Shown here in pieces: positions 8,428 to 30,809 of a DNA stretch of 51,192 bases. The notes beneath the pieces were generated by a model. The model searched no databases, was not told where the DNA came from, and worked only from the letters and a program-made list of their open reading frames with translations. A program made the position numbers and the translations under genes. Position 1 is the first letter of the stretch; the number at the start of each line of letters is the position of its first letter. Source of the DNA: Campylobacterales bacterium (lineage in GTDB: Bacteria > Campylobacterota > Campylobacteria > Campylobacterales > QNZT01); NCBI GenBank assembly GCA_024278835.1, contig JAJRSK010000037.1, positions 1 through 51,192 of the forward strand, read 5' to 3'.

Positions 8428-9636
8428 TTATCTTTTTAATAAATCTACCATGAAAAAATCAGCAGAACCATTGCCAAAACTATCTGTTTCACCCACGATG
8501 ACCATAGAACCCCGACTCGTTTGTGCTACCGCATGCGCCATATCTTTTTTGCCACCACCATAGAGATTTCCCCAGACTAGGTGTCCCTTATCATCAAGTT
8601 CTAGTACATACATATCGTACTTTCCATGCCCCATAGACTTGGTCGTACCGACTACCATATAGCCACCATCAGGCGTATGCGCGATACCATGTCCAAGTTC
8701 GATACTTTTAAAACCAAAAAGTTGATGCCATACTTGCTCACCATTTTTATCGAGTTTCATCACATCGATATCACTATGTTTACTTTTATAAGACTCTGTT
8801 TCACCAGCGACGACACAACCGCCATCTTTGGTTGGGGTAATGGCTCGAAAGATATCTTTTTTCTCTTCACCATAGGCTTTTGCCCATATCTGTTTTCCCG
8901 TAGGTGATATTTTTGTGATATAAAAATCTAAATTATCTTTACTATAAGAATCTGAACTACCTGCAAGGATAAAATTCCCATCCGAAGATGGTGTGATAGC
9001 GTAGGCTACATCATCTTTTTTACTACCATAGGTCTTTTGCCACACTTTATTACCATTTTTATCGAGTTTCAAAAGATAGATATCCTGATAACCTTTACCA
9101 TACGATTCTGTTGAACCTGCTACCATAACACCCCCATCTTTAGTGGCACAAACAGCATTGGCATGGTCAAGTTCATCCCCACCATACGCTTTTTGCCAAA
9201 TCATTCCACCATCTTTTGCGGAGAGTTTCACAGCATAAACATCAAAATCACTATTTTTATTAAAAGATTGCCCGTGTCCTACGGCTACAAGATTACCATC
9301 ACTTGTCTTGGTCAAAGACGTTGCCAAGTCTCTCTTTTTCCCACCAAAAAATTTACTCCAAAGCGTTTGTCCTTTAGCATTGACACGAATCACACACAAA
9401 TCTTCTCGTCCATGTCCAGTTCTACGACCAGAGCGACAAGTTCCTAGCACTGCGACATCACCATTAGCCAAAGAAACAACAGAACGTGCTATCTCTTTTT
9501 TACTCCCACCAAAGGTCGTTTTCCATGTGAACTTTAGTTCAGGTTTTGAAAGTTTTTTAGTGGCATTTTCATCTTTTGCGACACCTGATAATGTAAAAAT
9601 AGAGGCTATCATGATAGTTGTTAATAGTTTTGTCAT
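8428..9636 (-). CDS. exported beta-propeller-like repeat protein
   Basis: 402 residues with a Sec signal peptide (MTKLLTTIMIASIFTLSGVAK). The mature protein is about seven tandem units of roughly 52 residues with the pattern W-x-K-x-YGG-x(2-3)-D-x-A-x-A, then DGG, then G-x-T-x-S, then a D-x-Y/L-DxxG turn. This is the look of an extracytoplasmic propeller, probably periplasmic or surface-exposed. No enzymatic motif is seen. The start is supported by AGGAGAATAAATACTATG. It has a paralogue of the same design, frameshifted, at 29573-30729. Function unknown; a binding or scaffold role is plausible. Confidence 0.7.
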   Translation of the reverse strand: MTKLLTTIMIASIFTLSGVAKDENATKKLSKPELKFTWKTTFGGSKKEIARSVVSLANGDVAVLGTCRSGRRTGHGREDLCVIRVNAKGQTLWSKFFGGKKRDLATSLTKTSDGNLVAVGHGQSFNKNSDFDVYAVKLSAKDGGMIWQKAYGGDELDHANAVCATKDGGVMVAGSTESYGKGYQDIYLLKLDKNGNKVWQKTYGSKKDDVAYAITPSSDGNFILAGSSDSYSKDNLDFYITKISPTGKQIWAKAYGEEKKDIFRAITPTKDGGCVVAGETESYKSKHSDIDVMKLDKNGEQVWHQLFGFKSIELGHGIAHTPDGGYMVVGTTKSMGHGKYDMYVLELDDKGHLVWGNLYGGGKKDMAHAVAQTSRGSMVIVGETDSFGNGSADFFMVDLLKR

Positions 9637-14377: not shown

Positions 14378-14917
14378 ATGAAACAAAAAGTATTAATTCT
14401 TCACGGTTGGGGTGGAAGTGACTATCCCCATTGGCAAAGTTGGCTGGCGGGGGAGATTGCCAAGGAGTATGGTACCGTCTCTTTTCCGCTCCTTGACAAT
14501 CCCCACTTTCCTAACAAAAATCGTCAAATGCGACAAGTCAAAACACTTCTAAAAGAGTTCAAGCCCGACACCGTTATCTGTCACTCCTTGGCAAATATCA
14601 TCTGGTTTCACCTCTGCGAAGAAGGCGAGATAGAGGCTGTCAAAAGAGTCCTACTAGTCTGCCCTCCTTCAAGCAACTGTGACATCAAAACTATCAAGCA
14701 GTTTTTCCCTTATCAAGCACCCAAAAATCTTTATGCTTCAGAAGCCTTGCTAGTCACCTCTACAACAGACCCCTATCTCACCCAAGAAGAAGCATCTACA
14801 TTGGCAAAAGAGTTGGACATAGAGATGAAAGTCTTAAAAGATGCAGGACATATCAGCGCCGATAGTGGTTATGGTGTGTGGGACTGGGTACTAGCGTGGG
14901 TGAGAAAGTATAAATGA
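14378..14917 (+). CDS. RBBP9/YdeN-family serine hydrolase
   Basis: 179 residues, a small alpha/beta hydrolase. HGWGGSDYPHWQSWL opens the protein (oxyanion region), HSLAN (about 70-74) carries the nucleophile Ser, TDPY the Asp (about 130) and AGHISADSG the His (about 152), completing the triad of the RBBP9 family. Substrate unknown. A TATAAT (14366-14371) lies so close to the ATG that transcription from it would start at or next to the start codon, and there is no Shine-Dalgarno sequence. The mRNA could be leaderless, unless the gene is read through from the dehydrogenase operon. Its 3' end overlaps the convergent next gene by 27 nt. Confidence 0.85.
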   Translation: MKQKVLILHGWGGSDYPHWQSWLAGEIAKEYGTVSFPLLDNPHFPNKNRQMRQVKTLLKEFKPDTVICHSLANIIWFHLCEEGEIEAVKRVLLVCPPSSNCDIKTIKQFFPYQAPKNLYASEALLVTSTTDPYLTQEEASTLAKELDIEMKVLKDAGHISADSGYGVWDWVLAWVRKYK

Positions 14918-15745
14918 ACTTATCTCATCCATAACCCCATCATCATATAAGATTCGCCTATGCCCTAAACCCTTAGTTTGAACAAACTTTGCCCAAGACC
15001 ATTGTTGACAACAAGCACCAACATTGTCTATACTCACCTCTTTATCACTTGGGTCATAAATGATTAGTGTAGGCACTTGATAAGATGAAGTAAAGATATC
15101 CCTCCACTCTTTTCCATACTTTAACAATCCCTCTTTTTGTTTATCCCAAAAATATCTAGGCAATTTATCCAACACTTTTTGCGGGATATGCAATTTCTCC
15201 CCAAACCATTTTTCGATGATTTCTATAGGATTACAAAAGGGAGCAATTAAAACTATCTTTTTTGTCTCTAATCCTAATTTTGAAGCAACAAAAGTTGTCG
15301 TACCACCTAGAGAGTGCGCGATGATACACTCTACTTCACCAACAGAGTGATTGATAAATCGCAGACAATCTGCCCATTGTGAAAGCATAGAGAGTCCACC
15401 TGAACTATCTCCATGACCGATGGCATCATACGAGATGACTTGATAACCTTCTCTCACAAGCTTTTCAATCACCTTGTGCATGCTCGTGGCTACGCCTGTC
15501 CAGCCATGTACTACTAAAACCTTTGGATCTGACGCTTTGCCCCAACGATATCCTGCGATTTTATAGCCTTCAAAAGAGATTGTAAATTTTTTTGCCTTTT
15601 GTAAAAGAGTCTTTTCGATTTCACTACGCTCATAACAACTAGGCGTATGAAACAGTAAAAATGCTTTATCTATCACCAGTTTAGGCGACACCCTACCTAT
15701 AAGAGAGAAATAAAATCGATAAAAAAATAATTTATTCAGCATCAT
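14891..15745 (-). CDS. alpha/beta hydrolase
   Basis: 284 residues. VLVVHGWTG (about 78-86) marks the oxyanion loop, AHSLGGTT the nucleophile Ser elbow, DPSDKEV the acid and GLGHRRIL the His of the triad. A short hydrophobic N-terminus (MLNKLFFYRFYFSLIG) could anchor it at the membrane. It lies last in the minus-strand beta-oxidation run, 28 nt after the acyltransferase-hydrolase gene, so an esterase or thioesterase role on lipid substrates is plausible but not shown. Confidence 0.75.
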   Translation of the reverse strand: MMLNKLFFYRFYFSLIGRVSPKLVIDKAFLLFHTPSCYERSEIEKTLLQKAKKFTISFEGYKIAGYRWGKASDPKVLVVHGWTGVATSMHKVIEKLVREGYQVISYDAIGHGDSSGGLSMLSQWADCLRFINHSVGEVECIIAHSLGGTTTFVASKLGLETKKIVLIAPFCNPIEIIEKWFGEKLHIPQKVLDKLPRYFWDKQKEGLLKYGKEWRDIFTSSYQVPTLIIYDPSDKEVSIDNVGACCQQWSWAKFVQTKGLGHRRILYDDGVMDEISSFILSHPR

Positions 15746-15773: not shown

Positions 15774-17906
15774 CTATGTTCTTTTCAAAACATCAACGAT
15801 AAAACGGTAAATACTCTGGTATACTTCCTCTGCCTCATTCCCTTGTAAAATGCTATGTTTTTGGCGCGGCAATAGTATCATCTTTTTGAAGTCTGATTGG
15901 ACATTGTCGTAGATAAGTTTGGCACTTTTAGGATTCACTACAGGATCATTATCCCCTTGCAAAATGAGGATAGGTGCTGTCACTTTGTCTAAAGTTTTTT
16001 CCACTTTTGTCATCACTTTTTCCATCTCAGCCACAGAAGAGAGAGGATGTTTATCATAGTTTACCTTGGGATTTTCACTATCATTTTCTATCCATTCGTT
16101 GATGCCTTTTGCATGAAGATAAGCTATCATCTCATTAAAAGCATTAAGTGTGGGGACAACATAAGAGACTTTGAGATTATTTAGCTTTAAAGCAGAATTT
16201 ATCACCATCACACCATCCACTTCATACTGTGCTCCATGGTAGAGCGCCAACAAGCCACCGGTTGAGAATCCTCCGATAAAAACTTTATCACACACTTGCC
16301 GCATCGCGGTAAAGGCACGCTCAAAATCCACTTCCCACTCCTCTGATGAGACCTCTTTTAATGCCTCTGGGTCTGTCCCATGTCCGCGCAGACGAGGGAT
16401 GTAAACATTAATGCCTTTTGCATAGAGATATTCTGCCAATTTTTTCGCTTCTGCCGGCGCTGACATATACCCATGCGAAAAGACGATACCTGTACTGTTC
16501 TTATCATGATAGAGTACGATAGGTTTTCCAACCGCATCTTCTTTTGGCATGCTATCATGATAGCGTAAATACTCATCTTCATAGTACTTCAAGTCACGTT
16601 GCTGTAAGTAGTGAAAGTTATCCATCTTAAGTTCACTTTCGGAGAATAGACTATTTTTTTCAGCCGTCTCCACCAACTCTTTTTGCCACTTAATCTCATT
16701 TAAGATAACTTGGAGTGTATTTTTCACCCGTATTTTATTAAAATCATAACGCTTCTGAAGTAATTTTTTATCAAAAAGATACTCACCCTCACTATCTTTA
16801 AAAAGTATTTTTTGAACCTGTGCAATTTTAAGTGCTGACTTAAAAGGAGCGTACTCTTTATCTAGGATAAGTTTAAAGAGTTCTTTAGATAGTTCAGGGT
16901 GGAGATTGAGACCTTTTATATTTCTAAGTTCCCTCACATTTTTATAGATAAGCGTTCTCAAGTAGGTAGGGCAAACTTTGAGCGTAGGCATCGTCACAAG
17001 TGAAAGTATAAAGATATGATCAAAGTTGATTTGCATATTACCATAGACTTTTTTCATCGCATCATTGATAAGCTCTTTTCGCTGTTTATCTATAAGCGCA
17101 CCCGTAAAACTACTATCTTCCAAAGAACCCTTGTGCGCATTTTGATACGCGTGTATATATTTCCTAGCAGAGATTGGTTTTCCAAAATGAAGATGCATGT
17201 TGGCGTCCATCAAAAGATTGATTTCGATTTCAAGTTCTTCAAAAAGTCTTGTTCCTCGTAGATTAAACCACTTGTCTATCAAAAGTAAAAGTCTATTTTC
17301 TCCAGTACGTATTGGATAATACGTAATAGAGAGTGGTACAATACTGAGTGAAACATCATGGGATAGTTTTATCTTGTCTAGTTTATGCCTTCTGCAAAAC
17401 CTCTTTATCTCTGCTTCATCACTGACCCCTTTCATCCGCTCACGCATCATCTCTGATTTTAGTGCTAAAACCGCTGCTCCCGTATGTACCGGTCCTTCTC
17501 TCATTGTCGTATGAATACAAAATTCTCCATCATCAAAGCTAATCTCTTTGTTTTTGACCATATGCCCCTCAGGATAAATAATCCAATCTGCCTTACCAGA
17601 GAGAAAATCCTCCGTGATGATACAATCTCTCGCTTCATTTTTATTGGAGATGGAACCTGCCAGTCGCATATACTCCCCAAGCCACCCGACAAACACCGTG
17701 TCATCTGCCAAAGACCTAGAAATTCGTTTATGTTTACTAAATAGTAGATACGGCACAACAAAAGTCTCAAAACGAGTAAAGTGGTTTGCCAAAAACAAAA
17801 CAGGAGCATCAGGTAGCCCCTCACCACTTGTGGTGATATTGGCACCGCTAAGTTTTTTGATAATAGCGATAAAAAGAGACGAAATCCAAAGCACTACTTT
17901 TATCAT
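15774..17906 (-). CDS. acyltransferase-alpha/beta hydrolase fusion
   Basis: 710 residues with two enzymatic parts. Residues 1-300 are a PlsC/GPAT-like acyltransferase with an N-terminal membrane segment. The motif I HX4D is altered to HX4E (His42...Glu47, NHFTRFE) and motif III is YPEGHMV rather than the usual FPEGTR. A helical linker (about 300-460) leads to a serine hydrolase: SHGYMSAP, GFSTGG (Ser nucleophile), GDNDPVV (Asp) and KHSIL (His). The start overlaps the stop of the acyl-CoA dehydrogenase gene by 4 nt, placing it in the beta-oxidation operon. It may release or transfer acyl chains from membrane lipids; this is inference. Confidence 0.75.
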   Translation of the reverse strand: MIKVVLWISSLFIAIIKKLSGANITTSGEGLPDAPVLFLANHFTRFETFVVPYLLFSKHKRISRSLADDTVFVGWLGEYMRLAGSISNKNEARDCIITEDFLSGKADWIIYPEGHMVKNKEISFDDGEFCIHTTMREGPVHTGAAVLALKSEMMRERMKGVSDEAEIKRFCRRHKLDKIKLSHDVSLSIVPLSITYYPIRTGENRLLLLIDKWFNLRGTRLFEELEIEINLLMDANMHLHFGKPISARKYIHAYQNAHKGSLEDSSFTGALIDKQRKELINDAMKKVYGNMQINFDHIFILSLVTMPTLKVCPTYLRTLIYKNVRELRNIKGLNLHPELSKELFKLILDKEYAPFKSALKIAQVQKILFKDSEGEYLFDKKLLQKRYDFNKIRVKNTLQVILNEIKWQKELVETAEKNSLFSESELKMDNFHYLQQRDLKYYEDEYLRYHDSMPKEDAVGKPIVLYHDKNSTGIVFSHGYMSAPAEAKKLAEYLYAKGINVYIPRLRGHGTDPEALKEVSSEEWEVDFERAFTAMRQVCDKVFIGGFSTGGLLALYHGAQYEVDGVMVINSALKLNNLKVSYVVPTLNAFNEMIAYLHAKGINEWIENDSENPKVNYDKHPLSSVAEMEKVMTKVEKTLDKVTAPILILQGDNDPVVNPKSAKLIYDNVQSDFKKMILLPRQKHSILQGNEAEEVYQSIYRFIVDVLKRT

Positions 17907-20074
17907 CTGAAATACTCCTCTTTGGTAAAAGAGTCTACTGCTATCATCTTGCGTTGTAATTTTCTCACCCTTTTAAATTGTGTAGCTTCTTCTTTACTAA
18001 GCGCTTCAATCCCTTCTACTTTTTCTTTGTTTATAATCTCTTTTGCATCATTTAGGGCAAGTGCCGCCTCAATCAACTGATACATTTTTTCATTTTTTCC
18101 ACCGATATAGACATTGTTACAAATTCGCTCTCTCATTGCTAGATCTGTCCCTAAAAGTTTTGCTATCTCATGTAAATCTCTATCTTTGATAACTGAGCCC
18201 ATAGGATTTAACCTACTAAAATATGAAAGCAATGTAAAAGGGTACGCTAAAACTCCAGAGGCCAAGTTTTGATAAATACCTAAAAAAGCGTGATCTATCT
18301 TGTTAAATCCATCTTCAAGAGCCACCCTTAAAAAAACCTCATCCTCTTTTTTCCCTTCCATTTGAAAGCGTTTAAGCGTCGCGCTCATCATATACATCTG
18401 CGCTAACACATCTCCAAATCTTCCAGAAACAGACTCTCTTCTTTTCAAATCAGCTCCCATCAAACCCAAAGCTACATCTGATAAAAATGCAAACTTCGCA
18501 GAAGCCCAAGAGAGTTTTTGCTCATATCTCCTTGTCTCACCTTGCCCTTTTGTACGGTGTAAATATCCACGAGAGAAAAATAACATACTCGCACGAAATC
18601 CATTTCTAAAGACATGTGCAATATGCGCAAAAAGGGCACTATCAAAAGCTTTTATATCCTCATTCTCTAGTGCTTCAATCTCATTATAGGCATAAGGATG
18701 ACAACGAATCATACCTTGTCCAAAAAGTATCAGCGTTCTTGTCATGATATTGGCTCCCTCTACCGTAATGGCAACGGGCGAACCAAAATAAGCATGTGCC
18801 AAAAGATTTTTAGGTCCCTTTGAGATAGCCCCACCCCCTTGGATATCCATGGCATCCAAGATATTTTTTCTAAATTTTTCAGTACTTTGATACTTCATGA
18901 TAGCATTGGCTACCGCTGGTTTGGCACCGCTGTCTATCGCCCCTAGGGTAAATGTTTTAGAAGCATCCAAGAGATAAGTATCTGCACCCATCCGCCCTAG
19001 CACTTCAGCAATTCCCTCAAATTTTCCGATGGAGATACCAAACTGATAACGCACCACACTATAAGTAGAGGCAACCATCGTGGCAAGCTTTGTACCTCCT
19101 GTACTAGTAGAAGGAAGAGAGATGCCACGCCCTACGGCAAGAGACTCCATTAACATCTTCCAGCCTTCGCCTATGCCTGAGTCTCCACCGATGATATCTT
19201 CTATAGAGATGATGACATCTTTACCAATGAGTGGCGCATTCACAAAAGGAACACCCAAGGGGTCATGTCGTCTACTTTGATCTACCCCCTCACTTTTAGC
19301 ATTCACCAAAGCACAGGTGATACCCAACTCCTTTCCTCGTCCAAGGATATTTTTAGGATCTTTCAACACAAAAGCCAAGCCTATAAGTGTTGAAATCGCA
19401 CTCAATGTAATGTAGCGTTTTTCAAACTGAAGCTTGATTTTCACTTCACCATCATCATCTTTAAAGATTTCACCATAAGACTGTATAGAAGCCGCGTCAC
19501 TTCCCGCTTCTGGTTCAGTAAGTGCAAAACAGGGAATCTCCCTACCATCAGCTAGACGCGGAAGAAAATACTCTTTTTGTTTTTCTAAACCATAGTTATG
19601 CAAGAGTTCTGCCGGTCCTAATGAATTTGGCACCATCACCGTAATCGCCAAGACTTGTGAACGCGTGGCAAGTTTTTCAATCACACAACTATGCCCATAC
19701 GCGGAAAATCCAAGCCCTCCATACTCTTTAGGGATAATCATCCCCAAAAAGCGTCTCTCTTTGATAAATTTCCACACTTTTTTAGGAAGTTCTCTTTTTT
19801 GAAAAACATCCCAATCATTGGTCATCGCACAAAGTGCTTCTACTTCGTTATCTAAAAATGCTTGTTCTTCTAGACTTAGTGTCGGATAAGGGTTTGAAAA
19901 TATCTTTGTAAAGTCTGGTTTCCCACTAAAAAGTTCTCCCTCTATCCACACACCTCCCGCTCTCAAAGCGGTCTTTTCCGTATCTGAAATCTTGGGCAAT
20001 AGCCCTTTTGATTTTAGCATCTTAAAAAGAGGATTTGTGATAAATTTTATCCTTGTATCTTGTAAAAAACTCAT
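17903..20074 (-). CDS. fadE: acyl-CoA dehydrogenase, FadE type
   Basis: 723 residues, somewhat shorter than the roughly 800 of enterobacterial FadE but far longer than ordinary acyl-CoA dehydrogenases. It catalyses the first step of beta-oxidation, acyl-CoA to enoyl-CoA with FAD. Recognisable: PKEYGGLGFSAYGHS, CFALTEPEAGSDAAS (FAD/substrate loop), GEGWKMLMESLAVGRGISLPS and QGGGAISKGPKN. The C-terminal extension (about 500-723) is the FadE-specific DUF1974-like region. It overlaps the hydratase gene upstream and the acyltransferase gene downstream by 4 nt each, so translation is coupled. Confidence 0.9.
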   Translation of the reverse strand: MSFLQDTRIKFITNPLFKMLKSKGLLPKISDTEKTALRAGGVWIEGELFSGKPDFTKIFSNPYPTLSLEEQAFLDNEVEALCAMTNDWDVFQKRELPKKVWKFIKERRFLGMIIPKEYGGLGFSAYGHSCVIEKLATRSQVLAITVMVPNSLGPAELLHNYGLEKQKEYFLPRLADGREIPCFALTEPEAGSDAASIQSYGEIFKDDDGEVKIKLQFEKRYITLSAISTLIGLAFVLKDPKNILGRGKELGITCALVNAKSEGVDQSRRHDPLGVPFVNAPLIGKDVIISIEDIIGGDSGIGEGWKMLMESLAVGRGISLPSTSTGGTKLATMVASTYSVVRYQFGISIGKFEGIAEVLGRMGADTYLLDASKTFTLGAIDSGAKPAVANAIMKYQSTEKFRKNILDAMDIQGGGAISKGPKNLLAHAYFGSPVAITVEGANIMTRTLILFGQGMIRCHPYAYNEIEALENEDIKAFDSALFAHIAHVFRNGFRASMLFFSRGYLHRTKGQGETRRYEQKLSWASAKFAFLSDVALGLMGADLKRRESVSGRFGDVLAQMYMMSATLKRFQMEGKKEDEVFLRVALEDGFNKIDHAFLGIYQNLASGVLAYPFTLLSYFSRLNPMGSVIKDRDLHEIAKLLGTDLAMRERICNNVYIGGKNEKMYQLIEAALALNDAKEIINKEKVEGIEALSKEEATQFKRVRKLQRKMIAVDSFTKEEYFR

Positions 20075-22188
20075 GATGCACCTCCATAAAAAGTCATCTC
20101 TTTTTGTGCCATATCTAGCAGTAGATGAGAGGGTGTAAACCTATCTCCATATGCAGCTCGCAGTTGGTTTAATATTTTGATGATTTTATCTACACCTATC
20201 GTATCTGCGTAGCGTAGCAATCCACCACGAAATGCTGGAAAACCAGTCCCCATCACCATCGCCATATCCAGATATCGTGCATTAGCCACGACATCTTCTT
20301 CTAAACATCTTGTCGCTTCGTTTATCATGATAAGTAGTGAGCGGTGAAGCACCGTCTCTTTATCTAGAGCGGTTGAGCCTTTTTGCAAAGTAGTTATTTC
20401 AAGATTTAGCGTAGGTTTTTTACTCCCATAGTCATAAAATCCTTTTTGCATTTTTTTACCAAGCCATTTTTTACCCACCATCTCATTCATCAACAAACTC
20501 TCTTGCATCCGCTCACCATATGCTTCATGTAATATCACAGAGACTTTAGCCCCGATATCAACTCCCACCGTATCGATAAGTGCAAAAGCCCCCATCGGCA
20601 TACCAAAGTCTAAAAGTGTCTTATCAATCATCTTGATATCCCCACCTTCTTCAAACATCAAGGTCGCCTCTTTTAAGTAAGGTAAAAGGATACGGTTGAC
20701 TAAAAACCCCGCTGACTCTTTGACCTTTATAGGCGTTTTACCCATCTGTTTACTAAGTTTTACCACCGTAGCAATCGTCTCATCGTCGGTTTTATCCCCC
20801 GCAATGATTTCTACCAATGGCATACGCTCAACAGGATTAAAAAAGTGCATCCCAACAAATCTATGCGGATGTTTTAATCCTTTTGCTAAATTACTGATAG
20901 AAATCGAAGAGGTATTACTAGCGATAATCGCATCCTCTTTAAGTACTTCTTCAAACTCTGCATAGATTTTTTGTTTTAATGCACTATCTTCATTCACTGC
21001 TTCGAGGAGAAAGTCACAATTTTGAAATCCCACATACTCTGTAGCAGAAGTGATTTTATCCATCTTAAGTGCCACTGCACGCTCACTCAAACGACCACGT
21101 TTTTTGATGCCTTCATAAATATTTCGGATTTTAACTACTGCTTTTGCAGCACTTTCACTACTTCTAACTTTCAGACGTACATCGATATCTTGGTTGTTTA
21201 AAGCCCATGCGATACCACTTCCCATCGTACCTGTTCCTACGATAGAACTTTGCTGTATCTCTTTTGCTTTGGCTTTTGAAAACGACTCTTTTTTGAGAAT
21301 TTCTGAGATAAAAAAGAGTTCAATAAGATTTTTTGAGATAGGGGTAAGTGCTAACAGACCAACCGCTTCCCTCTCTATCTTTAATCCCTCTTCAAGTGAT
21401 TTTCCATAACTTTCATACATCACATCGATGACGCTTAATGGTGCGGGATAATGCCCAGCTGTTTTTGCTAAAACTTGTTTTTTTGCCATCTTAGTGATAA
21501 CTGTTCTCACAGGAGCAATCTTTTCATACCAAAGAAGCCCTTTTCTCTTTGCTTGTATCTTAGCATCTAAGATTCCATCCACTATCTCTTGCCCAAACTC
21601 CTCTTTTTTAAATTCTAAATATCCTCGTGGAACACAAGCATCTACCAAGCCTAACTTCAAGGCTTTTTCTCCTCTAAGTAGCTTACTCCCTACAATAAGT
21701 TCAATCGCTTTGGCATACCCAACTAGCTTATAAAGCCTCTGCGTGCCACCAAAGCCTGGCAAGATTCCCAGCTTCACTTCAGGAAGTCCGATGCGCGTAT
21801 GAGAATTTGTCGTGGCAATTCGATAAGAACAAGCCAAACTCATCTCCAATCCCCCACCTAAACACACCCCATCAATCATCGCAATAGTTGGAAATGGAAC
21901 ATTCTCAAGCTTAGTGAAGAGATCTTGCCCATTTTTAACATAGGCATCGATTTGTTTTTTATTGTCTGCTTGTTTTATCTCATGGATATCTGCCCCTGCG
22001 ATGAAGATACCTTCTTTACTACTTTCGATAAAAAGTGCTTTAATATCCTTATCATGATAGAGCATATCTAGCAGTTCATCAAACTCTCTCATCGCTTCAC
22101 TTGTAAAGATATTGACCGTACTTTTAGGCGTGTCAAATCTTAGTGTTGCAATCCCTTGTTTGTCCATTTTATAGTTAAAATATTTCAT
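20071..22188 (-). CDS. fadJ: fatty-acid oxidation multifunctional protein (FadJ/FadB-like)
   Basis: 705 residues from the preferred start at 22188. The N-terminal enoyl-CoA hydratase domain has GADIHEIKQ and CLGGGLEMSLACSYRIA with catalytic acidic residues around GLPEVKLGILPG. The C-terminal half is 3-hydroxyacyl-CoA dehydrogenase: GTGTMGSGIA (NAD loop), ASNTSSISIS, and HRFVGMHFFNPVERMPLVEI. A longer frame reaches 22236, but GGAGG lies just before the ATG at 22188, which overlaps the thiolase stop (TAATG). This gives steps two and three of beta-oxidation. FadB versus FadJ cannot be settled here. Confidence 0.9.
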   Translation of the reverse strand: MKYFNYKMDKQGIATLRFDTPKSTVNIFTSEAMREFDELLDMLYHDKDIKALFIESSKEGIFIAGADIHEIKQADNKKQIDAYVKNGQDLFTKLENVPFPTIAMIDGVCLGGGLEMSLACSYRIATTNSHTRIGLPEVKLGILPGFGGTQRLYKLVGYAKAIELIVGSKLLRGEKALKLGLVDACVPRGYLEFKKEEFGQEIVDGILDAKIQAKRKGLLWYEKIAPVRTVITKMAKKQVLAKTAGHYPAPLSVIDVMYESYGKSLEEGLKIEREAVGLLALTPISKNLIELFFISEILKKESFSKAKAKEIQQSSIVGTGTMGSGIAWALNNQDIDVRLKVRSSESAAKAVVKIRNIYEGIKKRGRLSERAVALKMDKITSATEYVGFQNCDFLLEAVNEDSALKQKIYAEFEEVLKEDAIIASNTSSISISNLAKGLKHPHRFVGMHFFNPVERMPLVEIIAGDKTDDETIATVVKLSKQMGKTPIKVKESAGFLVNRILLPYLKEATLMFEEGGDIKMIDKTLLDFGMPMGAFALIDTVGVDIGAKVSVILHEAYGERMQESLLMNEMVGKKWLGKKMQKGFYDYGSKKPTLNLEITTLQKGSTALDKETVLHRSLLIMINEATRCLEEDVVANARYLDMAMVMGTGFPAFRGGLLRYADTIGVDKIIKILNQLRAAYGDRFTPSHLLLDMAQKEMTFYGGAS

Positions 22189-23480
22189 TATTCTACCTCC
22201 AAAAGAAGTGCTGCACCTTGACCACCGCCGATACAAAGTGTGGCTAATCCTCTTTGTTGTTTACGATTTCTTAGTTCATGTAACATGGTGAGCACCAACC
22301 TTGTGCCTGTCATCCCTACTGGATGCCCTAGAGCGATAGCACCACCATTGACATTTAAAATCTTTGGGGCTATTTTTCCTACTGCTTTATCTATGCCAAA
22401 ATGTGTTTTTGCAAAGTTTTTGGAAGCAAAGGCTTTTTGACAAGCGATAACTTGCGCCGCAAATGCTTCGTTGATCTCCATCAACTCTATATCTTGCATC
22501 CCAAGTCCTGTTTTTGCAAAAAGTTCTTGCGTGGCAAAGACTGGACCTAAACCCATGCGTTTTGGATCAAGTCCCGTATACGCATACGCACGTAGAAAGC
22601 CAAGTGGCGTAAGTCCTCTTTTTTTTGCTTCACTCTCACTCATCACGATGACCGCTGCTGCTGCATCTGTAATCTGAGATGAGTTTCCCGCTGTCACTGT
22701 GCCGTTTTTCTTGTCAAAAAATGGTCTTAACTTTGCCAACTTTTCAACTGTTTGTCCCTCTCTTATCCCATCATCATAGTCGAGAAAATTACCAGAGTGT
22801 TCATCATAAATAATCGCCATACTCTCCTGTGAAAATCTACCAGACTTCATCGCCTTTTCAGCCTTTTGATGGCTTATCAAAGCAAACTTATCTTGTTCTT
22901 TTCGACTAATTCCAAAATCCCTAGCCAACACTTCAGCCGTAGAACCCATCAAAAGACCACTCACAGGATCTGTTAATCCTGACATAAGTCCAACAATAGG
23001 TTTTAAAAACGCTGGACGAAACCCAAAGAGTGCTCGCAGACTATCTAGTGCTGTTTTTGATTTTGAAAGTTGGGTAAATAAAGTCGTCATTTTTTCACTA
23101 TAAACAAGAGGAATATTGCTCATAGACTCCACACCACCACAAAGATAAACTTTGCCCTCTTTGGCATGGATTCGTGATGCTGCTGTTGTGATAGACTCCA
23201 TGCCAGAAGCACAGTTTCTATGTACTGTCATCGCGGGAGTAGATTCTGGAAATCCTGCACGAAGGGCAATAACCCTAGCGATATTTGCCGCGTGAATTGG
23301 CTGGGCAACATTGCCAATAATCACTTCATTTATATCAGAAAATTCCAAGGGGGAGCGCATCATCACTTCCCTGACAAGCTTACTTCCAAGCGTATCTGCT
23401 TGCAAAGTCTTAAACTTTTCACCTGCCTTCGCCATCGGAGTTCTTAGACCTGATATAATAGCTATTCGTTCATTTTTCAT
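22188..23480 (-). CDS. fadI: 3-ketoacyl-CoA thiolase (FadI/FadA-like)
   Basis: 430 residues, the length of FadI-type thiolases. It cleaves 3-ketoacyl-CoA to acetyl-CoA and a shortened acyl-CoA. The acylated Cys is in HRNCASGMES (about 90). The second active-site His is in NGGAIALGHPVGMTG, and CIGGGQGAALLLE near the end holds the third catalytic element. NEAFAAQ is intact. It precedes the hydratase/dehydrogenase gene with a 1-nt overlap, so the two subunits of the trifunctional complex are coupled. It begins a new transcription or translation block 106 nt after the Fe-S protein gene. Confidence 0.92.
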   Translation of the reverse strand: MKNERIAIISGLRTPMAKAGEKFKTLQADTLGSKLVREVMMRSPLEFSDINEVIIGNVAQPIHAANIARVIALRAGFPESTPAMTVHRNCASGMESITTAASRIHAKEGKVYLCGGVESMSNIPLVYSEKMTTLFTQLSKSKTALDSLRALFGFRPAFLKPIVGLMSGLTDPVSGLLMGSTAEVLARDFGISRKEQDKFALISHQKAEKAMKSGRFSQESMAIIYDEHSGNFLDYDDGIREGQTVEKLAKLRPFFDKKNGTVTAGNSSQITDAAAAVIVMSESEAKKRGLTPLGFLRAYAYTGLDPKRMGLGPVFATQELFAKTGLGMQDIELMEINEAFAAQVIACQKAFASKNFAKTHFGIDKAVGKIAPKILNVNGGAIALGHPVGMTGTRLVLTMLHELRNRKQQRGLATLCIGGGQGAALLLEVE

Positions 23481-23586: not shown

Positions 23587-24093
23587 CTAAGAGGATTGAA
23601 GTTCTTTAATCACTTTAGAAACATCCCCCAAACAGCACCCTCCACTAGGATTAAGTATCTCACAAGCACATCCGGGATTTTTCATTTTTTCTTTGATTTC
23701 TTTTAATGCTGTAGATTTTCCTGTTTCATCTAGTTGTGCTTGTATCTTCTCTTTTGTCCAGTTAAAGCAGTAGCATACAGTGGCAGGCGTAGCACCTTCT
23801 TTGTGACCAACAACAACCATGATGTCTTTTTGTGTCAATTGTATAGCATCTTTAAAATAAACCACCTTGCAAGAAGGCGTTTTACAAAAATAAAATCCCT
23901 CTAAGCTTGTCAATTTTTCCTTAGTTTTATCAATCAAAAGATGCTCTAGTGTTTTGGCTAAAACACCTTTAGCCTTTGTGTGGCAACTAGGGCAAAGCGC
24001 TTTACCTTTTGGTTGAACTGAGCAACAGTCATGCCCCTTCGGTTGTGATGTGATATCACAACCTTTCTCTGATTTTGGTTTTAAACTAAACAT
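23587..24093 (-). CDS. CopZ/BFD-like Fe-S cluster binding protein
   Basis: 168 residues, very Cys-rich. Sites visible: CPSCHTKAKGV (about 34), FCKTPSCKVVYF (about 70), VCYCFNWTKEKIQ (about 107, the CxC of BFD-like [2Fe-2S] domains) and PGCACEILNPSGGCCLGDV (about 137-155). This layout resembles the N-terminal zinc/[2Fe-2S] part of CopZ-type copper chaperones, without the HMA domain. Lying 11 nt after the acyl-CoA ligase gene and ahead of the thiolase gene, it could be an electron carrier or regulator for beta-oxidation. Start: AAGGAG, 5 nt, ATG. Confidence 0.7.
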   Translation of the reverse strand: MFSLKPKSEKGCDITSQPKGHDCCSVQPKGKALCPSCHTKAKGVLAKTLEHLLIDKTKEKLTSLEGFYFCKTPSCKVVYFKDAIQLTQKDIMVVVGHKEGATPATVCYCFNWTKEKIQAQLDETGKSTALKEIKEKMKNPGCACEILNPSGGCCLGDVSKVIKELQSS

Positions 24094-24104
24094 TGCATCT
24101 CCTT

Positions 24105-25826
24105 TTAGATATGTCCTTTATACATCGCCTCTATCTCTTTTTCAAAACGCTTTTGAACATTGCCCCGGGCGAGTTTCATAGAAGGGGTAAGGTATCCATC
24201 TTCGATAGTCAAAACCTCAAAAATCAGATGGAAATCTCTAATCTTTTCCCAATGGTTAAGTTTTTTGTTGATTTTTGTGATAACAGCTTTTATCTCTTTT
24301 TGCAAAGCTTTTGATTTGCTATCATGATACGCCTCCAGCCTTGTCTCATCTAGCATCAATAATGCTACCACAAATGGTCTCTCATCTCCTACGATAAGGA
24401 CTTGATCAAACCATCCACTAGCAGCTAAAAGTTGCTCGATATAATTGACAGAGATATACTCCCCCGTAGAGGTTTTGGAGAGATCCTTTTTTCTACCCGT
24501 GATCGCGATATATCCTTCTTCATCTATACTAGCCAAATCTCCAGTATGGAGCCATCCTTCCCTATCTATAGTAGCATCCGTTGCTTCTTTGTTGTTGTGA
24601 TAGCCTATCATGATACCCGGTCCCCTAGCTAGTAGTTCACCGTCTTTGGCTATCTTTGTCTCTGTGTGGACAAAGTGTCTACCACAGGTACCTATCTTAT
24701 TTTCATTTGGTGCGTTAGCGCAGATGACGGGACTGGCTTCTGTCAGACCATACCCTTGATAAAGAGAAATACCAATGTTTAAGAAAAACCGATATAAATC
24801 ATCTGAAAGTGCTGCTCCTCCTGAAATCATCATCCGTAAACTCCCACCCAAAGAAGTTCTCAATTTACTATAGACTATCTTATCCAACCAAGTATCTACG
24901 ATATTTTTCGCCCTCCAAGGGTATTTTTGATTGGCTCTAGCAAAGGCTATCATGATAAGAAGCTTTTTAAGGATATTTCCCTCCATCGCTTTTGTATGCA
25001 TCTTAAAATAGACTTTTTCTAAAAGCCGTGGTACAACTGTCATCACCGTAGGATGCACAGAGCGCAGTAAATCCCCAACATGTTTCACATCATCAGCAAA
25101 ATAGATAGACATCCCCGTACTGATATAAAAGTGCATCACCATACGCTCAAAAATATGCGCCAATGGTAAAAAACTAAGTGCACTATCTGTTTTTGCATCA
25201 AATTTATACTTGATGCCTGTATCGATGATTTGGGAGATGAGATTTTGATGTGACAACTCTACCCCTTTTGGCAAACCAGACGTGCCTGAAGTATAGACAA
25301 TAGTCACCAAATCATCAGGCTTTATCTCTGCAAGAAGTATCTCAAACTTTTGTGGCTCTTTTTTATCTATCTCTTTACCTTTGTTTAACAAACTCTCTAT
25401 AGATAAACAGTTGGTACATTTTGCATCTATATCGATACACTCTACCCTATCATTGGCTTCTTTGATGATTTTAGCTTGTTCATCCGTTTGCGTAAAAGCA
25501 GTACAAATATCCGCATCCCTTATCTGAAATTTTAAATTTTTTGTAGAGATATTGGTAAACAATGGCACGCTGACTGCCCCAGAAAGCATCAAGGCATAAT
25601 CAATCATCACCCAATAAATAGAAGGATCAATCACCAACGCTATCTGCCTTCCACGCCACCCCTTCGCGTCAAATGCCAAAGTAAGATAACGCACCGTTTG
25701 TAAAAACTCTGATTTAGCGCAATGTTTCCATTTATTTGATTCTAAGTGATTTAAAAAAGTATCATTTTCCGGCAATTCACCCAAATATTTATAAAGAGCT
25801 GCGAAGGTATGTATATTTCCTATCAT
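24105..25826 (-). CDS. fadD: long-chain acyl-CoA synthetase (AMP-forming)
   Basis: 573 residues. It activates fatty acids to acyl-CoA with ATP. Signature motifs: TIVYTSGTSGLPKGVELSH (AMP-binding P-loop-like, about 173-191), YQGYGLTEASPVI (about 337), GWLHTGDLASIDEEGYI and GRKKD (A8/A10 region). The start ATG lies inside a copy of TATCATGATA with AGGAGG immediately upstream. It is the first gene of the minus-strand run leading to thiolase, hydratase/dehydrogenase and acyl-CoA dehydrogenase. The palindrome recurs three more times within it, giving IMI and YHD peptides. Confidence 0.9.
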   Translation of the reverse strand: MIGNIHTFAALYKYLGELPENDTFLNHLESNKWKHCAKSEFLQTVRYLTLAFDAKGWRGRQIALVIDPSIYWVMIDYALMLSGAVSVPLFTNISTKNLKFQIRDADICTAFTQTDEQAKIIKEANDRVECIDIDAKCTNCLSIESLLNKGKEIDKKEPQKFEILLAEIKPDDLVTIVYTSGTSGLPKGVELSHQNLISQIIDTGIKYKFDAKTDSALSFLPLAHIFERMVMHFYISTGMSIYFADDVKHVGDLLRSVHPTVMTVVPRLLEKVYFKMHTKAMEGNILKKLLIMIAFARANQKYPWRAKNIVDTWLDKIVYSKLRTSLGGSLRMMISGGAALSDDLYRFFLNIGISLYQGYGLTEASPVICANAPNENKIGTCGRHFVHTETKIAKDGELLARGPGIMIGYHNNKEATDATIDREGWLHTGDLASIDEEGYIAITGRKKDLSKTSTGEYISVNYIEQLLAASGWFDQVLIVGDERPFVVALLMLDETRLEAYHDSKSKALQKEIKAVITKINKKLNHWEKIRDFHLIFEVLTIEDGYLTPSMKLARGNVQKRFEKEIEAMYKGHI

Positions 25827-29572: not shown

Positions 29573-30729
29573 CTACTGCACGCGTACCACATAGATATCC
29601 ATACCACCACTACCATGCGTCTTTGTATCACCCACCATCACGATACCACCATCTTTTAATTGGGTGATACCATAAGCAATCTCCTCTTTTTTTCCACCAT
29701 AATGATTAGTTCTCAAAACATTACCATCTTTATCTATCATGATAAGGATAAAATCCGTCCGACCATAACTCATACCACGGCTAGAACCTGTGATAGCATA
29801 ACCCCCATCAGCGAGTGCCGTGACACCATAGGCACGATCTTTTTCCCCTACATCTCCATATGTTTTCACTAGACGTTTTTTTCCATCTTTATCCAGAAGA
29901 ATGATATAAACATCTCCTTTTTTATCTTTATAAGACTTGGTTTTTCCTACTAGCGCAAATCCGCCATCTACCCCCTTGGCAATAGCATGTATCATATCTT
30001 CTTTTTTCCCACCAAAAATCTTTTCCCAGATAAATTTCCTTCGAAACTGAGTTTTACCACATAGCCATCATAGCTATTTTCACCAAAGGACTCACTCTTG
30101 CCAACAAGCAATAAACTACCATCATCTGCTTCTGCTACGCCCGTCGCAATATCCCAATCCTTTCCACCAGCCGTCTGTTCCCATGCCAAAGCACCCTTGG
30201 CATCTAGTTTGACTGCGTAGTAGTTATATGAGCCTACACCATAAGACTTAGTAGTACCTAGTATCAAAAGACCACCATCTTTTGTGGAGATGACGGCACT
30301 TGCTTCATCTTTGGCACTACCTCCTGCCACTTTTTCCCATATCTTATTGCCATCTTTATCCATCTTGACGATATAAAAGTCATATCCCCCAGCACCATAA
30401 GACTTGGTAGAGCCCACCACCACATAGCCACCATCTGCTGTTTGTGTGATAGCCGCCGCATTCTCCTTTCTCTCACCACCAAAGTTTTTTGCCCATAGTT
30501 TATGCCCCTGACTATCTAACTTCATCACATTGATATCTGTTTTACCATGCCCAAAAGAGCGTGAGGTACTCGCGATGATAAGACCACCATCATCTGTAGC
30601 TGTGATGGCTTTAGCCACATCATCTTTAGCACCACCAAAAGCCTTTTGCCATGTGACAGCTAGAGGATTGGTTTGAGAAGCAAGCAAGGGAAGGGTCAAA
30701 AGCGCAGCAAGTAAAATAGATTTTTTCAC
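29573..30729 (-). pseudogene. exported propeller-like repeat protein, frameshifted
   Basis: One gene split into two frames. The upstream part starts at a GTG (30729) with AAAGGA 6 nt before it and has a signal peptide (VKKSILLAALLTLPLLAS). It runs through repeats of the W-x-K-x-FGG...DGG type and ends at 29992. The downstream part (29995-29573) continues the same repeats. At 30032-30037 the reading should pass from FEG to IWEKIFGG, but one base is missing around GGAAATTT. Restoring it joins the two frames into one protein of about 385 residues, paralogous to 8428-9636. It may be a real mutation or a base-calling error. Confidence 0.8.
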
Positions 30730-30809
30730 GGGGATTCCTTTATAAGTATTTCTTATGAAAGTATATACCTTTTCCATTTAAAAACTACTTAAGGGCACTT
30801 CTAAAAACC

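Follow-up and report, generated by a model that had tools for sequence, protein, structure and literature searches.

Introduction

Little is known of the bacterial enzymes that act from within the cell to remodel acyl chains. In plants, phytyl ester synthases contain a hydrolase and a DGAT2-like acyltransferase in one chain, with a domain order opposite to that of the protein described here. The Aas protein of Escherichia coli takes part in lysophospholipid remodelling, as stated in the available part of PMC11416262. The bacterial pathway for acyl-chain remodelling is called unknown in the accessible text of PMC9132575; an initial phospholipase candidate is described there, and its partner acyltransferase has yet to be identified. 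Genes of the acyltransferase-hydrolase kind are mentioned in the excerpts available from PMC10351704, either with a HAD phosphatase or without further description. No description of the present acyltransferase-hydrolase fusion was found in the literature searched, which lies mostly outside subscription journals and is partly represented by excerpts. The gene analyzed here joins both kinds of domain and is found almost always beside fadE in Campylobacterota, which would make the remodelling question testable.

The locus

The window, that is, the whole stretch of DNA analyzed, is 51,192 nucleotides of a contig from a Campylobacterales bacterium. The gene of interest is a single open frame of 710 codons starting with ATG. 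It is the last gene of an operon, with genes for a ligase, FadI, FadJ and FadE upstream on the same strand:

15774..17906, minus strand: fusion protein of 710 amino acids, with a GPAT/LPLAT-like acyltransferase, a helical middle part and a monoacylglycerol-lipase-like hydrolase (open reading frame, Pfam, 60-member alignment, AlphaFold2 models)
17903..20074, minus strand: fadE-type acyl-CoA dehydrogenase (ACDH_C 215.6 bits; NF007000 909.5 bits)
20071..22188, minus strand: fadJ/fadB-type multifunctional enzyme (Pfam, NCBIfam)
22188..23480, minus strand: fadI/fadA-type thiolase (Pfam, NCBIfam)
23587..24093, minus strand: small CopZ-like Fe-S protein, encoded between ligase and thiolase genes
24105..25826, minus strand: acyl-CoA ligase (PF00501 209.6 bits), which in other genomes comes first in the conserved gene order

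The initial annotation described a single protein joining an acyltransferase with HX4E and YPEGHMV motifs to a serine hydrolase with a full triad, and both the frame and the residues are as described. It also had the gene translationally coupled to fadE. The ATG of the fusion does overlap the FadE stop by 4 bp, and from this arrangement of the sequence we infer that the two genes are probably coupled in translation.

Several other features of the region should be noted. The position of the CopZ-like gene is empty in the other listed loci which have both ligase and thiolase. A second alpha/beta hydrolase of 284 amino acids (14891-15745, minus strand) begins 28 bp past the fusion stop on the same strand, and 43% homologues of it adjoin the fusion, in convergent orientation, in two loci (L148 and L149). 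A small Ser_hydrolase gene (PF06821; 14378-14917, plus strand) is convergent on the fusion region, and its 55% homologue adjoins the fusion in locus L145. The region is flanked on both sides (29573-30777 and 8428-9636, minus strand) by two sets of proteins with similar GG-x-K-x-D-x-A-like repeats, which are probably beta-propellers.

The acyltransferase half

The domains and motifs of the fusion are distributed as follows:

17082..17906, minus strand: LPLAT acyltransferase core, residues 1-275 (PF01553 in the relatives; AlphaFold2 secondary structure)
17766..17783, minus strand: motif 1 variant HX4E, H42-E47 (N-H42-F-T-R-F-E47)
17565..17573, minus strand: motif 3, P112-E113-G114 of YPEGHMVK
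16527..17081, minus strand: helical middle part (residues 276-460), probably related to the beginning of GPAT_C (PF19277 in relatives; GPAT1 match; invariant H297, R393 and N403)
15774..16526, minus strand: serine hydrolase domain, residues 461-710 (Hydrolase_4; PDB sequence matches; VIA-align)
16263..16265, minus strand: nucleophile S548 (GFSTGG), S in 55/60 members and G in 5
15945..15947, minus strand: triad D654, D in 52/60, E in 2, another residue in 5, gap in 1
15855..15857, minus strand: triad H684, H in 55/60, another residue in 4, gap in 1

The Pfam family Acyltransferase (PF01553) scores 21.5 bits with the whole window protein, just below the cut-off of 23, and 25.2 bits with the same gene in the genome-wide search, above the cut-off. 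All 21 members of alignment A3 match it at E<=1, the best at 1.3e-12. The core opens with a helix at residues 2-20 in the AlphaFold2 secondary structure, which is probably a membrane anchor, to judge from the model.

Residue counts are based on an alignment of 60 members. Repeats of other loci and non-fusions (L001-L012, L027-L063, L103) are excluded from it, as are a split frame (L020), genes at contig ends (L021, L022, L025) and sequences with the hydrolase only (L098, L102). One incomplete sequence (L076) is kept, which accounts for the gaps in two triad columns. Residues H42, R45, E47, G84, P112, E113, G114, P191, E223, E228, Y288, H297, R393 and N403 are invariant in 60/60; residue 118 is K in 59 members and R in one.

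Compared with the standard AGPAT/LPLAT motifs, as listed in the available part of PMC8753187, the agreement is partial. Motif 3 (xxEGxx, E113-G114) and the proline of motif 4 (P191) are present in all 60 members. Motif 1 (xHxxxxD) is replaced by the HX4E variant, also in all of them. Motif 2 (GxxFxxR) is not matched in the window protein, whose sequence lacks F and R at the required positions, but G84 in this region is kept in 60/60. The usual R after motif 3 is missing. Since motif 2 is absent as written, the acceptor may well differ from the usual one, a possibility also raised in the initial annotation.

A lost transferase activity had been suggested from these altered motifs, a view which our results do not support. 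H42, E47, the PEG triplet and P191 are invariant, and decay falls in the hydrolase half. In addition, LpxL and LpxM have an HX4E motif whose Glu is required for activity, according to the portion of PMC6286764 available. Loss of acyltransferase function by drift is rejected in view of the invariance of the motif residues. The invariant HX4E also corrects the idea that this variant denotes a dead enzyme.

Predicted fold and the possibly GPAT-like middle part

Structures of both domains were predicted with AlphaFold2 from 14 sequences, the window protein and 13 relatives, all but one of which are close. The full-length model averages a pLDDT of 75.8 and the separate model of residues 1-460 one of 76.2, with values under 50 in stretches near motif 3 (114-119, 133-139). 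Residues 1-460 were folded separately for the fold search because the search with the full-length model was filled by hydrolase matches. The models are GPAT1-like in the N-terminal half and monoacylglycerol-lipase-like in the C-terminal half.

The only Foldseek match of the N-terminal half at E<=0.001 is human GPAT1 (8e4y, E 3.7e-6). VIA-align superposes 327 residues on 8e4y with Z 15.3 and rmsd 4.7, over model residues 1-421 and with moderate model confidence; the next best structure is Thermotoga PlsC (5kym, Z 12.0, 189 residues). Sequence profiles agree in part. The family GPAT_C (PF19277) is matched by 9/21 members of A3 at E<=1, covering only the first part of its 344 positions; the best match is locus L082 (E 9.3e-7, 28.9 bits, cut-off 25). 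The window protein itself has no match to GPAT_C. A profile search of the PDB finds a G3P acyltransferase at E 0.017. In hhalign comparisons with individual E. coli proteins, the PlsC-type domain of Aas ranks first (E 7.6e-6, probability 84, 122 columns), PlsB second (E 0.0018, probability 15, 261 columns) and PlsC third, an order by which sequence alone leaves the subfamily unsettled.

Over residues 1-421, the predicted fold of the front half thus appears similar to that of GPAT1/PlsB. The label "PlsC-like" of the initial annotation is correct as regards the LPLAT core, but it is too narrow, since the predicted likeness to GPAT1/PlsB extends through residue 421. A plain PlsC is rejected for the same reason: the structural match to GPAT1 runs well past the core.

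The hydrolase half

The C-terminal domain scores 85.2 bits with the Pfam family Hydrolase_4 (cut-off 27). It has the fold, the nucleophile elbow and the Ser-Asp-His triad of monoacylglycerol lipases. Among PDB sequences it is closest to the monoacylglycerol lipases of bacteria and to esterases of the Est30 type (lowest E 1.7e-30), and VIA-align superposes 221 residues on the Bacillus monoacylglycerol lipase 4ke6_F with Z 27.3. Top fold matches include monoacylglycerol lipase chains with bound lauroyl glycerol.

This fold would also suit an enzyme which makes or breaks storage lipids, either triacylglycerol or wax esters, but there is no storage-lipid synthase among the neighbours scanned, and we consider such a role very improbable. 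A search for WS/DGAT found no match in the genome itself or in any control genome, so it is uninformative.

Free-standing hydrolases of about 300 amino acids (L098, L102; G171, G333, G278, G358) align with the fusion from near residue 430 onwards and so retain the linker. The fusion may have arisen from such proteins, or they may have split off from it.

S548 is replaced by Gly in one member, L083a, and in a clade of four (L084, L087, L091, L093), which also lacks the triad Asp and His. These serine-less members sit at two separate places of the tree and represent two lineages. Locus L083 (7621-12010) contains tandem fusion genes, one copy of which lacks the triad serine and aspartate. Since the catalytic serine is missing in 5/60 members, hydrolysis is not required in every one of them. 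The acyltransferase motif is present in 60/60 while S548 is lost in 5/60, so selection seems, from the alignment, to keep the acyltransferase motif and sometimes to let the hydrolase go.

These counts bear on a supply-only explanation, close to the idea of the initial annotation: the hydrolase would supply beta-oxidation with fatty acids, the acyltransferase half being a dead domain which binds lipid or anchors the protein in the membrane. The operon is catabolic, and HX4E and the absent motif 2 do depart from the textbook motifs, but an invariant acyltransferase, with the losses in the hydrolase triad, speaks against this explanation, and HX4E is functional in LpxL and LpxM. We regard it as improbable.

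Distribution in Campylobacterota and related genomes

A survey of the range of the fusion, which the initial annotation had proposed, finds full-length copies in 13/298 Campylobacterota genomes (all at least 90% complete), 35/297 Desulfobacterota and 7/99 near relatives. The family-profile search covered Campylobacterota and Desulfobacterota. A scan of contigs from all phyla, sensitive to close relatives, found 14 loci, all of them labelled as one of these two phyla. With tblastn, none of 38 plasmid records covers 80% of the query, and among the matches listed (20 of the 38) only the hydrolase half is found. Full-length homologues with the same architecture recur across both phyla, so the fusion is not a chance join.

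In Campylobacterota, FadE (PF09317) is above the curated cut-off in 13/298 genomes, which are the same 13 that contain the fusion; in one additional genome (G480) the score of PF09317 stays below the cut-off. Were the two genes independent, identical sets would be expected with a probability of about 6e-23, a figure made too strong by the kinship of the genomes. The carriers span five families (f1, f6, f8, f16, f20), and the fusion adjoins FadE in all 13. The link to fatty-acid oxidation claimed in the initial annotation is thus supported. With adjacency in 13/13, the homologues are not located far from fatty-acid genes everywhere, a finding which would have spoken against it.

Near relatives present a similar picture. 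Matches are found in 9/99 genomes, two of them weak and partial; the 7 with a full-length fusion are the same 7 which have FadE, adding families f3 and f7. The combined set has 18 different genomes from seven families (f1, f3, f6, f7, f8, f16, f20), with fusion and FadE adjacent in 16 of them. In the two exceptions they are about 3 kb apart (G027) or on different contigs (G023). The order ligase-FadI-FadJ-FadE-fusion recurs in family f8, which we take from its gene content to be of Arcobacteraceae type, and in others. In six f8 loci (L100, L147, L150, L151, L152, L154) a gene for a YiiD-type thioesterase comes directly after the fusion.

Some f8 loci (L147, L150-L154) also have genes for an M48 peptidase, YebC and mostly an M23 peptidase downstream of the fusion. 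Next come genes for MlaA, MlaC and a protein of about 830 amino acids, the whole series lying in some 8-10 kb. Mla proteins serve in phospholipid transport.

Desulfobacterota and transfer of the block

In Desulfobacterota, 43/297 genomes match at E<=1e-40: 35 contain full-length fusions, 7 the hydrolase only, and one is cut off at a contig end. FadE-type enzymes (PF09317) are present in 5/297 genomes, of which only 2 have the fusion, so the fad link is not general in this phylum. A strict fad-operon protein is therefore rejected as a general rule: most Desulfobacterota carriers have no FadE-type enzyme.

We have examined the neighbours of the fusion in 35 Desulfobacterota loci (L026, L064-L097). 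One of them (L079) has a fadE-fadI-fadJ-ligase run beside the fusion, and three (L066, L081, L083) have other acyl-CoA dehydrogenases within the stretch examined. A glycerophosphodiester phosphodiesterase (GDPD), an enzyme which turns deacylated phospholipid into glycerol 3-phosphate, adjoins the fusion in five loci (L069, L074, L075, L077, L095), which fall in three separate lineages of the tree. Other neighbours include RuvAB. A search of the window's own genome for GDPD found none; the control was matched in 11/14. The GDPD and fad contexts would correspond to what phospholipid breakdown yields, a glycerol moiety on the one hand and acyl chains on the other.

In 13 related loci (L013-L025), labelled Campylobacterota or Desulfobulbales, the fusion is immediately preceded by FadE or its contig-end remnant, and the operon proteins share 55-91% identity with those of the window. 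In the fusion tree, the Desulfobulbales rows cluster with a single contig labelled Sulfurovum in one group (SH-aLRT 99), nested within Campylobacterota, and the FadI+FadJ tree agrees on the Desulfobulbales grouping (100/99). As both trees fit, the results suggest that the block moved once, from Campylobacterota to Desulfobulbales. The loci of the transferred block come from metagenome assemblies, in which single contigs may be misbinned; one of them sits on a 283-kb contig.

Proposed function

We propose that the fusion is a two-headed glycerolipid enzyme which links the acyl-CoA pool to glycerolipids, the lipase head releasing acyl chains and the GPAT-like head re-attaching them, and we give this reading a probability of about 0.5. 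An exchange in which acyl chains pass from glycerolipids to the acyl-CoA pool and back is suggested because the gene occurs where acyl-CoA is made, is the last of that operon, and codes for a GPAT-like and a lipase-like domain. What the sequences and models show are the domain architecture, the conservation of the motifs, the predicted folds, the linkage in the operon and the co-occurrence; from these we infer the two activities, acyl-CoA as the donor, the substrates, a location at the membrane and the direction in which acyl chains flow.

The fusion would sit at the cytosolic face of the inner membrane. Its C-terminal head, with the build of a monoacylglycerol lipase, would take an acyl chain off a monoacyl glycerolipid, either a lysophospholipid or a monoacylglycerol. 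The freed fatty acid would be activated by the acyl-CoA ligase of the operon. The resulting acyl-CoA could then enter the FadE-FadJ-FadI pathway, or it could be taken by the N-terminal GPAT-type head, whose His-Glu dyad would return the acyl group to glycerol phosphate or a lyso-lipid. The fusion would thereby set the share of acyl chains which are burned or returned to membrane lipid, and would act as a switch which decides whether fatty acids are kept or burned.

The genome contains PlsY and two other PF01553 proteins, so the N-terminal half is unlikely to be a housekeeping acyltransferase. The same PlsY is compatible with another explanation, in which the acyltransferase is the main activity: it would incorporate exogenous CoA-activated fatty acids into the membrane lipid of bacteria which use PlsY, the hydrolase being an editing or product-control domain. 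An invariant acyltransferase with a hydrolase dispensable in two lineages speaks for it, the co-occurrence with FadE would follow if acyl-CoA is the donor, and the GDPD genes in 5/35 Desulfobacterota loci also fit. But the position in a catabolic operon in 13/13 carriers favours a role in oxidation too, and nearly all members retain a complete triad. We find this explanation rather unlikely.

The two-headed enzyme may be stated in a stronger form: a one-protein cycle of deacylation and reacylation, made of a GPAT-type family with an invariant His-Glu dyad and a lysolipid lipase, which would give PlsY users an acyl-CoA-dependent exchange between membrane lipid and beta-oxidation, in a five-gene block that moved between phyla. 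This form is doubtful, and we offer it tentatively.

Comparison with known systems

The fusion resembles GPAT1/PlsB in the predicted fold of residues 1-421, in the match to the start of GPAT_C that 9/21 relatives show at E<=1, in the proline of motif 4 and in the EG of motif 3. It differs from them in having HX4E instead of HX4D, no GxxFxxR and no R after EG, and it is shorter and fused to a lipase. With PlsC it shares the LPLAT core (Z 12.0 to 5kym over 189 residues), but PlsC has no middle part and has the HX4D and FPEGTR motifs. The HX4E dyad is also found in the lipid A acyltransferases LpxL and LpxM, which by their description belong to a different family with a different acceptor.

The second half is similar in fold, triad and sequence to the bacterial monoacylglycerol lipases (the 4ke6 series of Bacillus sp. 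H257, Geobacillus 5xks) and to Est30. These are free-standing proteins of about 250 residues, unlike the lipase-like half of the fusion. Finally, Aas of E. coli also has a PlsC-type domain joined to a second lipid enzyme. Its partner is an acyl-ACP synthetase, not a lipase, and in the operon of the fusion the ligase is a separate gene.
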